Source: Sulfurovum sp.
Lineage (GTDB): Bacteria > Campylobacterota > Campylobacteria > Campylobacterales > Sulfurovaceae
Length of the DNA stretch: 64,000 bases
Assembly (NCBI GenBank): GCA_027081115.1
Contig: JALWLD010000112.1
Coordinates: forward strand, 1 to 64,000
Reading direction: 5' to 3'
In this document: positions 1,237 to 5,093 of the stretch, piece after piece
Position numbering within the stretch: position 1 is the stretch's first letter
How the letters are laid out: every line of letters begins with the position of its first letter
Made by a program: the position numbers and the translations under genes
The notes under the pieces: generated by a model
Seen by the model: only the letters and a program-made list of their open reading frames with translations
The model's database searches: none
Told to the model about the DNA's origin: nothing

Positions 1237-1269
1237 TTGTACCCTTTTAATTAACAAATCTATTGAAAC

Positions 1270-1341
1270 AAATTGCAGCTTGGCGATCTACTTGAGACCC
1301 ATAGCTTTCCGTCCCATTCTCACGAATGGTTTGGCCTGATA
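1270..1341 (-). ncRNA. Cyclic-di-GMP-I (GEMM-I) riboswitch aptamer
   Basis: On the minus strand the leader contains CAGGCCAAACC, then the hairpin CCATTCGTGAGAATGG capped by a GNRA loop (GTGA), then GACGGAAAGC, a second imperfect stem opening GGGTCT and closing AGATCGCC, and AAGCTGC. These are the signature elements of the c-di-GMP-I aptamer in the same order as the Vibrio Vc2 RNA. Relative to Vc2, the pair G21-C46 is replaced by C21-G46, a compensatory change; the ligand-contacting G20 and stacking A47 are retained. AGCT on each side of the second stem can pair. The outer P1 helix looks weak. No U-tract hairpin follows; the ATG is about 35 bases downstream, so control of translation initiation is more likely than termination. 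Confidence 0.85.
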
Positions 1342-1371
1342 ATATACTCTTAATAGAGTACTACATCATTA

Positions 1372-1377
1372 ATTATA
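1372..1377 (-). promoter_or_regulatory. Probable -10 element of the adhesin operon
   Basis: TATAAT on the minus strand about 30 bases before the riboswitch aptamer. A six-base inverted repeat (TACTCT/AGAGTA, 1345-1360) lies between it and the aptamer. I could not settle a -35 at proper spacing. Confidence 0.45.
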
Positions 1378-1464
1378 CTATATAAATGTCATCAAAATGT
1401 CACTTTTTACAATCTTTATTAGGATTTATATATACACGGTAACACTGTTTTAGAAACTTTCCTA

Positions 1465-1736: not shown

Positions 1737-4346
1737 ATGAAATTTTTGAAATCATTACTTCTAATGATACTTATTTTAACGTTTAACATATATGCCCAAG
1801 AGACAACTCCGGCAAAAACAACACTGTATCTCCAAGGGAAACATCGGTTTGAATTTGCCGGCTTCTATGCGGCTAAGGAGAAAGGGTTTTACAAAAAGGG
1901 CGGGCTGGATGTCTCGTTTGTTGAATTTGAAAAAAACAAAAACATTACAGAAAAAGTTTTAAGCGGAAAAGCTCAGTATGGACTTGGAGACGCATCTATT
2001 GTAGCAGACTATCTTAAGGGAAAAAGTCTTGTTCTACTAGCAAACTTTTTTAAACAGTCACCTCTGGTACTCATAGCTCAGGAAAACATCAAAACACCTG
2101 CTGAACTTAGCAATAAAAAGATCATGGGTCTTTCGAACAGTATTCATGATATTACACTCTTAACTATGCTCAACAAATTCAATATTGGACTTGACAATAT
2201 TACTACAGTACCAGCAAGTTTCAATACAGATGCCTTCATAGATAAAAAAGTAGATGCCATGAGTGTTTTTACCACTAATGAGCTCTACAGCTTAAATCAA
2301 AAAGATGTCAAATACAATATTTTTGACCCTGTCATTTATGGTGCCAAACATTATACTGCCAATCTCTTCACCTCCGCCAAAGAGCTTCATGAACACCCCG
2401 AACAAGTTGCACGTTTTACAAAAGCTTCCATAGAGGGCTGGGAATATGCCCTGGGACATAAAAAAGAGATCGTAGAACTGATACTAAAGAAGTACAATAC
2501 TCAACATAAAAGCAAAGCAGCACTTCTTTTTGAAGCAAAACAGATAGAACAGCTCATGCTTCCGTCTATGCATAAGATAGGCAGTATAGATATCTATAGA
2601 ATTGAAGAGATTGCCGAAAGCTTTATACAGGCAGGTTTTGTTGACACACCTGTAAACAGAGATATCAGTCATTTTATTTACCATTATGATTCCCAATCAA
2701 AAAAAAGGGTCTGGAAAAAGAAAACAGCTGAAAATAGCATGATCGATGAAGTAGTACTGTTAACAGCCGAGGAGAAAAAGTACCTTTCATCCAAAAAAGT
2801 GGTCACAATGTGTATTGACCCGGACTGGATGCCATACGAATCAATAAAACAGGAAAAACATATTGGTATCAGTGCCGATTATTTAAAAAAGATTTCGTTA
2901 TTGATCCACATACCTTTCACACTTATTCATACAAAAAGCTGGAGTGAATCTTTGGCCATGTTCAAAGACAAGCAATGTGATATTCTCTCTTTGGTAGCAC
3001 AAACACCAAAACGTCTGAAGGAAATGTCATTTACCAAACCCTATTTGTCTTCTCCTCTGGTCCTTGCTACGACCTATGATAAATCATTTATCTCTGATAT
3101 CTCAAAACTGAAAGAAAAGAAAGTAGGTTTAGTGCGAAGCTATGCCAGTTCAGAACTGCTTAAAAATAAATATCTTGATATTCATTTTATAGAAGTCGAT
3201 ACCCTTTCAGAAGGTCTGAAAAAACTTGAAAACAGTGAACTCTATGCAATGATAGATACACTGACGACACTCTCATACCAGATTCAGAACTATTTTCCCA
3301 AACAACTTAAAATTTCAGGACAGCTACAAGATCAACTGCATCTGGGGATTGCCGTACAGAAAACAGAACCTGAACTACTCTCTATCCTCAATAAAGCGAT
3401 TAACACAATTAAAACTGACAGCAATCAATATATTTTAAACCAATGGGTCAAAGTAAGATTTGAAAAAGGAGACCGTTCTGTTGAAGCTTTCTTAAAAATC
3501 ATTTTACCTGTTTTACTGCTTTTCGGGCTCTTGATTATCAGTCATTTTATACAGCGTCAATACAGTAAACGTCTCAAAAAACAAGTTAATCTAAACATTG
3601 AAGCCTTACGGGAAAAAGATGAAGTACTCATCCAAAAACAGAGAATGGCAGACATGGGAGAAATGCTCTCCATGATCGCACACCAGTGGAGACAGCCGTT
3701 AGGTGCCATCAATTCAACCATATCAGGAGTACATATTAAAATAGCCAGTGGACAATACAACCTGGACCATCCTGCAGATCAGGAAGATTTTCTTAACTAT
3801 TTAGAGAGAAAGCTTAGCAATATTACCCAATATGTACAACACTTATCAACTACAACTGATGATTTCAGAAACTTTTTCAATCCTAATAAAAATAAAGAAC
3901 TCACTTCTTTGGTTCTCCCTATTGAAAGTGCACTGAATATTGTAGAAAACTCTCTACAAAAAAGTGGGATAAAAATAATCAAAGATTTACAGGAAAATCC
4001 TACCTTCAATATGTATCCCAACGAAATTGTACAAGTTATACTTAATCTATTAAAAAACAGCGAATATAATTTTTTGGATAAAAAAATAAAAGATCCAAAA
4101 ATCATTATTGTAACCTATACACGAAAAAACAAAACCGTTATCAGTGTATGTGACAATGGGGGAGGGATTCCTGCAAATATTGCAAAGAAGATATTTACAC
4201 CATATTTTAGTACTAAAACTGAAAGAAATGGTACAGGGCTTGGTTTATATATGTCCAAAATCATCATTGAAGACCATCATAATGGCTCATTGGCCATGAA
4301 AAACCGTCATGATGGAGTCTGCTTTGAAATGATCTTTAAAATATAA
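1737..4346 (+). CDS. Sensor histidine kinase with NMT1-like and SBP_bac_3 periplasmic domains
   Basis: 869 residues. Signal peptide (1-20), an NMT1/THI5-like solute-binding domain (about 28-310, with FEFAGFYAAKEKGFYKKGGL typical of that family), a family 3 amino-acid-binding-type domain (about 352-575, CIDPDWMPYE then GISADYL), one membrane helix (about 586-606), a short coiled linker, HisKA with the phosphoacceptor His near 649 (SMIAHQWRQP) and HATPase_c with N box near 762, DNGGGIP near 805 and GTGLGLYMSK near 832. The kinase subtype resembles the DctB/NtrB-like 'AHQWRQPL' group common in Campylobacterota. It should sense one or two small molecules, such as a pyrimidine-like or amino-acid ligand, in the periplasm. 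It converges on the response regulator at 4359-5093 with 12 bases between the stops, its likely partner. Confidence 0.85.
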   Translation: MKFLKSLLLMILILTFNIYAQETTPAKTTLYLQGKHRFEFAGFYAAKEKGFYKKGGLDVSFVEFEKNKNITEKVLSGKAQYGLGDASIVADYLKGKSLVLLANFFKQSPLVLIAQENIKTPAELSNKKIMGLSNSIHDITLLTMLNKFNIGLDNITTVPASFNTDAFIDKKVDAMSVFTTNELYSLNQKDVKYNIFDPVIYGAKHYTANLFTSAKELHEHPEQVARFTKASIEGWEYALGHKKEIVELILKKYNTQHKSKAALLFEAKQIEQLMLPSMHKIGSIDIYRIEEIAESFIQAGFVDTPVNRDISHFIYHYDSQSKKRVWKKKTAENSMIDEVVLLTAEEKKYLSSKKVVTMCIDPDWMPYESIKQEKHIGISADYLKKISLLIHIPFTLIHTKSWSESLAMFKDKQCDILSLVAQTPKRLKEMSFTKPYLSSPLVLATTYDKSFISDISKLKEKKVGLVRSYASSELLKNKYLDIHFIEVDTLSEGLKKLENSELYAMIDTLTTLSYQIQNYFPKQLKISGQLQDQLHLGIAVQKTEPELLSILNKAINTIKTDSNQYILNQWVKVRFEKGDRSVEAFLKIILPVLLLFGLLIISHFIQRQYSKRLKKQVNLNIEALREKDEVLIQKQRMADMGEMLSMIAHQWRQPLGAINSTISGVHIKIASGQYNLDHPADQEDFLNYLERKLSNITQYVQHLSTTTDDFRNFFNPNKNKELTSLVLPIESALNIVENSLQKSGIKIIKDLQENPTFNMYPNEIVQVILNLLKNSEYNFLDKKIKDPKIIIVTYTRKNKTVISVCDNGGGIPANIAKKIFTPYFSTKTERNGTGLGLYMSKIIIEDHHNGSLAMKNRHDGVCFEMIFKI

Positions 4347-4358
4347 AACTTTTAAACT

Positions 4359-5093
4359 CTACTGTTTTTGTGTAAGTTTATATCCCATACCGTAAATACT
4401 ACTGACTGCTTTTTCAGGAAGTTTTTTACGTAATTTAAAGACAAGGTTTCGAATATTTTTTTCATCCAGTTCTACTCCCTGTATATAAAAGTGCTGAATG
4501 ATATCATCATTGGTACAGACCTGCTCCTCTTTCTCAACCAAAAGTTGCATCAAAAGAATTTCATGTTTGGTTAAAGTCACAGGTAAATTATCTCTTTGCA
4601 ATACATGTTTTTCCCTGTGCCATACCGTTTTCTCTCCCATGTCAAAAATTGTACTCTGAGGCAATACTTCTTCCTCTTTATTGATCTTACTACATACATA
4701 AATAAGAGTATCAAGCAGCCGTTCATGCTGTACAGGTTTATTGATAAATTGTGCTATCCCCAGATTAATAAGCCGAAGGAGATACTCAGTATCCGTATGG
4801 GCAGACAGAATGATAATCTGCTGATTTTCATTTTCTTTACGAAGAATTTCACAAAAATCCACACCATTCATTACAGGCATAACTATATCTGAGATAACAA
4901 TATCGAATGTTTTACCATACTCTGATTGATATTCCTTATAGAAACCTAATGCTTCTACACCATTTGAGGCCACAACAACCATTTTAAACAAGTCTTCAAG
5001 CATCTCTGCCATATCATTACGTAAAGGCTCATAATCCTCCACTAAAAGTAGTGTCAACTCTTTAGTTTGAGAAAATAGTGTTTTATAATCCAT
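4359..5093 (-). CDS. OmpR-type response regulator
   Basis: 244 residues. Receiver domain (about 13-130: LLLVEDYEPLRNDM, phosphoacceptor Asp in VISDIVMPVMNG, IILSAH, FINKPV) and a winged-helix Trans_reg_C output domain (about 150-240: LTKHEILLMQLL, GMGYKL at the end). The gene starts at an ATG sharing its A with the TAA of mfd (TAATG), so it is the last gene of the mfd transcript although its likely partner kinase is convergent. Its target genes cannot be read from the window. Confidence 0.85.
   Translation of the reverse strand: MDYKTLFSQTKELTLLLVEDYEPLRNDMAEMLEDLFKMVVVASNGVEALGFYKEYQSEYGKTFDIVISDIVMPVMNGVDFCEILRKENENQQIIILSAHTDTEYLLRLINLGIAQFINKPVQHERLLDTLIYVCSKINKEEEVLPQSTIFDMGEKTVWHREKHVLQRDNLPVTLTKHEILLMQLLVEKEEQVCTNDDIIQHFYIQGVELDEKNIRNLVFKLRKKLPEKAVSSIYGMGYKLTQKQ

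Follow-up and report, generated by a model that had tools for sequence, protein, structure and literature searches.

The window, by which we mean the whole stretch of 64,000 nucleotides analysed here, begins with two minus-strand genes that read towards the contig end. The first (721-1236) encodes a protein of 171 amino acids with a signal-peptide-like N-terminus, as judged by eye, and belongs to no curated family. The second (2-721), whose ATG overlaps the stop codon of the first (TAATG), encodes the N-terminal 240 amino acids of an adhesin truncated by the contig end. Upstream of both, on the same strand, lies a c-di-GMP-I aptamer with helices P1, P2 and P3 (1271-1345), recognised from its scores against the Rfam families RF03167 and RF01051 and from the covariation seen among 50 aptamers in the genus. 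The start codon of the first gene (ATG, 1236-1234), preceded by the ribosome-binding stretch AAAAGGG (about 1248-1242), follows 34 bases past the aptamer. An earlier note on this DNA had the aptamer leading a secreted protein and a BapA-type adhesin; the operon is as it described, whereas the label 'BapA-type' rests on relatives, the adhesin here being truncated and its N-terminus matching no Pfam or NCBIfam model.

A likely -10 element (TATAAT, 1372-1377, minus strand) is indicated by the sequence and by matching stretches in four related leaders, and transcription is expected to start near 1365. The -35 region is covered by a direct repeat with an 11-base period, TGACATTT-n3-TGACATTT (1384-1402, minus strand), which is the only zero-mismatch copy in the window and is retained with changes in four related leaders. 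It is a possible site for an OmpR/PhoB-type regulator, which, if true, would add transcriptional control. Nearby, a divergent sensor kinase gene with NMT1 and SBP_bac_3 domains (1737-4346, plus strand) faces an OmpR-type response regulator gene (4359-5093, minus strand); this pair is a candidate partner of the repeat. Directly 5' of P1, folding predicts a leader hairpin, GUACUCU-AUUA-AGAGUAU (1344-1361, minus strand), whose 5' arm can alternatively pair with the ribosome-binding stretch. The hairpin is not conserved in related leaders.

Fold and conservation of the aptamer

A cmscan search with Rfam 15 returned one match at the gathering threshold in the 64 kb, to RF03167 (c-di-GMP-I-GGC) at 1344-1270 on the minus strand, with 63.5 bits (cut-off 59) and an E-value of 1.1e-12; an overlapping hit with a lower score, from the same clan, was omitted from the result. 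When the window's own genome was searched with RF01051, the same element (1345-1271, minus strand) scored 59.3 bits (cut-off 35). The earlier note had recognised the elements of a GEMM-I aptamer on the minus strand and had proposed a covariance search as the check; both scores, together with the fold, bear it out. P2 (1329-1324/1319-1314, with a GUGA loop) and P3 (1305-1295/1289-1278) are intact, and P1 is weak in the window, consisting of three A-U pairs (1343-1341/1274-1272). In the numbering of the Vc2 RNA, the core residues are G20 (1335), C21 (1334), C22 (1333), G45 (1310), G46 (1309), A47 (1308) and C92 (1275), so that the retained G20 and A47 and the C21-G46 pair are just as the note had read them. 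G20, A47 and C92 are the residues that contact the ligand in the c-di-GMP-I class.

Conservation was assessed in six genomes of the genus. From 63 listed aptamer places, one had no locus sequence and one aptamer of 139 bases was excluded; removal of near-identical ones reduced the remaining 61 to 50, which were aligned with MAFFT without structure, the degenerate copy G003:C2:493685 being retained in the covariation counts. RNAalifold recovered P2, P3 and the pairs 21-46 and 22-45 unaided from this alignment, with two-sided changes in 11 of 18 pairs. Pairing was possible in 97.3% of cells versus 85.1% after shuffling, a level reached by none of 500 shuffles; cells with two-sided changes numbered 141 versus 41.7; and the covariation score was 0.528 versus 0.278, with slid versions of the structure at 0.182 or below. 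Pair 22-45 alternates between C-G (26 aptamers) and U-A (23), and, by eye, most of the 50 aptamers have a GNRA-like P2 loop. P2 and P3 thus covary strongly, and a chance fold is ruled out by the Rfam scores and by covariation above that of the shuffled alignments. The contact residues are nearly constant among the 61 aptamers (G20 in 60, A47 in all, C92 in 60, once an offset of one base in two of the rows is taken into account). C21-G46 is found in all 61.

Occurrence and target genes

The window's genome carries 8 aptamers above the RF01051 cut-off. Across Sulfurovum, at least one is present in 56 of 61 genomes (382 in total, median 5, maximum 21). The locus that the earlier note had singled out, a riboswitch before an adhesin, is real, but it is not a single case, since the class is widespread in the genus. 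In a sample of the phylum, 43 of 397 genomes and 13 of 68 genera gave a match, all within the window's order. Outside the genus, 18 of 20 aptamers share C21-G46, the remaining two, both of genus g15, carry G21-C46, and on this account the two core types suggest more than one arrival of the class in the phylum. The G21-C46 aptamers, at L053 and L066 in another family of the order, stand before similar-looking proteins of 310-324 amino acids. A pattern requiring the C21-G46 core matched at least 117 stretches in a genome collection; among the 80 matches listed, about 20 are Campylobacterota by title and most others are Desulfobacterota and Gammaproteobacteria. C21-G46 is hence a common natural form of the pair, and the swap to which the note had drawn attention, while present, is not remarkable.

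Several variant arrangements were seen among the relatives. By our own count, eight same-strand aptamer pairs with starts at most 250 bases apart occur in four genomes (G003, G012, G027 and G029), and one member of a tandem pair, G003:C2:493685, is without G20 and C92. Two aptamers, L234:438-512 (G027:C11) and L252 (G003:C1), have an altered core, AAGT and GGTAC instead of AAAC and GGGAC, and lie about 250 bases ahead of a gene that we take to encode a threonine synthase, an odd target. Four others (L227:7141-7239, L235:5015-5114, L251:5010-5108 and L253:5016-5113) combine ACACC for AAACC with a U or C in place of the A in GGGAC, which looks like a correlated change at a contact outside the canonical ones.

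The window's genome also holds 16 GGDEF and 11 EAL matches. The number of aptamers rises with that of GGDEF matches (Spearman 0.57 over 61 genomes and 0.47 over the 34 that are at least 90% complete, shared ancestry being uncorrected), and both genomes without GGDEF among the 61 are also without an aptamer; three aptamer-free genomes carry 1, 6 and 11 GGDEF matches. In the window's genome, the targets include a LysM-NlpC/P60 hydrolase, a PilJ-domain operon, a PAS protein, an outer-membrane barrel with a PKD-domain protein, and a 1705-amino-acid Ig-repeat protein followed by what by eye are pilin-like proteins; one target, of 191 amino acids, matches no Pfam family, and one of the aptamers is located at the end of a contig. 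Targets in relatives include GGDEF-EAL, HD, glycosyltransferase, L,D-transpeptidase, histidine kinase and ABC exporter proteins. Among 20 target proteins scanned, five (one from the window's genome and four from relatives) had no Pfam match at E 0.001. Over the genus, targets are mostly envelope, PAS, pilus-type, glycosyltransferase, GGDEF/EAL or HD proteins.

Of 78 genomes in the genus, 7 have a relative of the first gene, the window's own genome being counted among them. An aptamer lies directly upstream in four of these operons (the window, G026, G009 and G455); in G037, G048 and G052 none was found in the fetched stretch at E 0.01. All four aptamer-bearing leaders preserve P2 and P3, and four pairs show changes on both sides. 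The paired bases that the earlier note had looked for in homologous leaders are therefore present in the three other aptamer-bearing operons; the remaining three operons are without an aptamer.

The second gene begins with a common N-terminal stretch, 51-66% identical, in G026, G009, G037, G048 and G052; the G455 locus is truncated by its contig end. In G009 this gene goes on to encode Ig repeats of the Ca2+-stabilised type (117.9 bits with Ca_tandemer, whose cut-off is 50); beyond it, Big_9/cadherin hits fall in a long open frame that reads in a different phase. The G009 adhesin relative (L237:3315-8001) accordingly seems to run on in another frame after one of 833 amino acids, perhaps through an assembly slip or a natural frameshift. 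In G026, cadherin/Big_9 repeats extend as far as the contig end. In G037 and G052, which have no aptamer, the second gene encodes a protein of 389-390 amino acids with RTX repeats; that of the equally aptamer-free G048 encodes 394 amino acids, the domain scan of the aptamer-free loci having taken in G037 and G052. The aptamer accompanies the repeat-adhesin form, a small-number pattern seen in a handful of loci.

Output of the riboswitch and its direction

We consider it very probable that the window element is a genuine c-di-GMP class I riboswitch that modulates translation. In the mechanism that we propose, the transcript would start just 5' of the aptamer, c-di-GMP would be bound through G20, A47 and C92, and binding would lock P1 and alter ribosome access to the start codon of the first gene downstream. 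Through the overlapping TAATG, this would set the production of both proteins, the small secreted one and the large adhesin stabilised by calcium. A transcription terminator as the output was rejected: no terminator-like site was found at 1150-1740, and 58 leaders of the genus held only three, all weak. Control at the start of translation is most likely, being the natural reading of a short leader without a terminator.

The direction of control was approached by folding. In the window leader, the 3' strand of P1, C92 included, pairs with downstream sequence in the region of the start codon, and access to the ribosome site changes from 0.54 with P2 and P3 alone forced to 0.63 with the whole aptamer forced. 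The same comparison gives a fall in the related leaders G009 and G026, and over 31 leaders (those of the 50 aligned aptamers that were usable, with a gap of 28-130 bases) 11 show a rise in access, 12 a fall and 8 a flat response. No usable start codon was present in 3 of 62 leaders. Among the 55 of 62 that were usable for permutation, the P1 3' strand pairs with the ribosome site only marginally better than in the permutations (p 0.05). Extended P1 gave p 0.09 (58 leaders), and testing the P1 3' strand for pairing anywhere in the leader downstream gave p 0.04 (34 leaders). None of the five switching tests (access, permutations and extended P1) survives correction. This absence of a switching trend counts against the riboswitch model, as do the weak P1, the three of seven related operons without an aptamer, and the three GGDEF-bearing genomes without one.

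Because the forced aptamer frees the window ribosome site slightly, our judgement leans somewhat towards c-di-GMP raising expression. The opposite polarity, which we regard as doubtful, would have P1 formation bring the leader segment GUACUCUAUUAA beside the ribosome site UUAAAAGGGUAC, with which it would pair, so that c-di-GMP would repress the operon. By inspection, 11 of 12 bases of these segments are able to pair, and the pairing of the window's 5' flank with the ribosome site (-10.3 kcal/mol) has a rank of 0.09. Nevertheless, the fold that this requires is about 4 kcal/mol worse than that with the local hairpin (-30.6 vs -34.8), the pairing is found in the window only and is not kept in related leaders, and over the leader set (55 of 62 usable) the 5' flank pairs with the ribosome site no better than permuted (p 0.97).

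Ligand, family and relation to known systems

Although RF03167 is the top-scoring model and its cut-off is passed, the window element is better filed as an ordinary c-di-GMP-I aptamer than as c-di-GMP-I-GGC, a variant family whose ligand may differ from c-di-GMP. At residue 47 the RF03167 consensus is G, and we read 'GGC' in its name as presumably denoting residues 20, 47 and 92. The window has A, as do all 61 aptamers of the genus and all 20 from other genera, so strict membership is rejected; moreover, all 8 aptamers of the window's genome pass the RF01051 cut-off and only 3 that of RF03167. We therefore hold a variant ligand on this ground to be very improbable. Sensing of 3',3'-cGAMP (c-AMP-GMP) was considered as well. 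The known cGAMP variant has A at position 20, and some GGDEF enzymes can make other dinucleotides. The residue is G20 in the window, in all but one of the genus set and in all 20 aptamers from other genera, and the aptamer count tracks the GGDEF count. Even though, as far as the accessible part of PMC9481103 goes, cGAMP-type variants share an identical fold and differ in one binding-pocket base, G20 in place of A20 leads us to reject this reading as exceedingly improbable. The aptamer thus probably binds c-di-GMP.

The class itself is known, and the interest lies in a genus-wide regulon in a poorly recorded phylum. To our knowledge, the best-studied members of the phylum have almost no riboswitches. 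As the earlier note had supposed, we found no paper describing c-di-GMP-I in Epsilonproteobacteria/Campylobacterota, Sulfurovum or Sulfurimonas in the portions of open-licence full text that were searchable, although it may well figure in Rfam species lists. In the available text of PMC3847290, only a TPP riboswitch was found in the 5' leaders of C. jejuni. c-di-GMP-I-GGC appears in the literature, from the excerpts at hand, only as a list entry or a single mention. According to the accessible text of PMC7580541, c-di-GMP turnover genes are expanded in Sulfurovum endosymbionts and contracted in Sulfurimonas, and a riboswitch regulon would offer a testable output for that expansion. Through it, c-di-GMP signalling in vent- and sediment-dwelling Campylobacterota would likewise gain an RNA as its direct effector, together with a list of the genes targeted. 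Whether c-di-GMP in Sulfurovum acts largely through such a translation-level regulon is, to us, evenly poised; it would comprise up to about 20 RNAs per genome, rewire quickly among adhesins, lipoproteins, PAS proteins, pilus-type operons and c-di-GMP enzymes, and reflect at least two separate arrivals in the phylum (C21-G46 and G21-C46).

Compared with c-di-GMP-I (RF01051, GEMM-I), the window element has the same fold, GNRA-looped P2, P3, G20/A47/C92 and a 21-46 pair, and the same location ahead of surface and signalling genes. It differs in its weak A-U P1, in the very short leader past the aptamer and in its occurrence in a phylum with few recorded riboswitches; in addition, Vc2, a c-di-GMP-I RNA, has G21-C46 where the window has C21-G46. 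With c-di-GMP-I-GGC (RF03167) it has in common the overall fold and an above-cut-off score, and differs in having A47 where the consensus has G47. Tandem c-di-GMP-I riboswitches, as described in the accessible part of PMC9481103, are paralleled by the close same-strand pairs in relatives of this genome, whereas the window copy is single.
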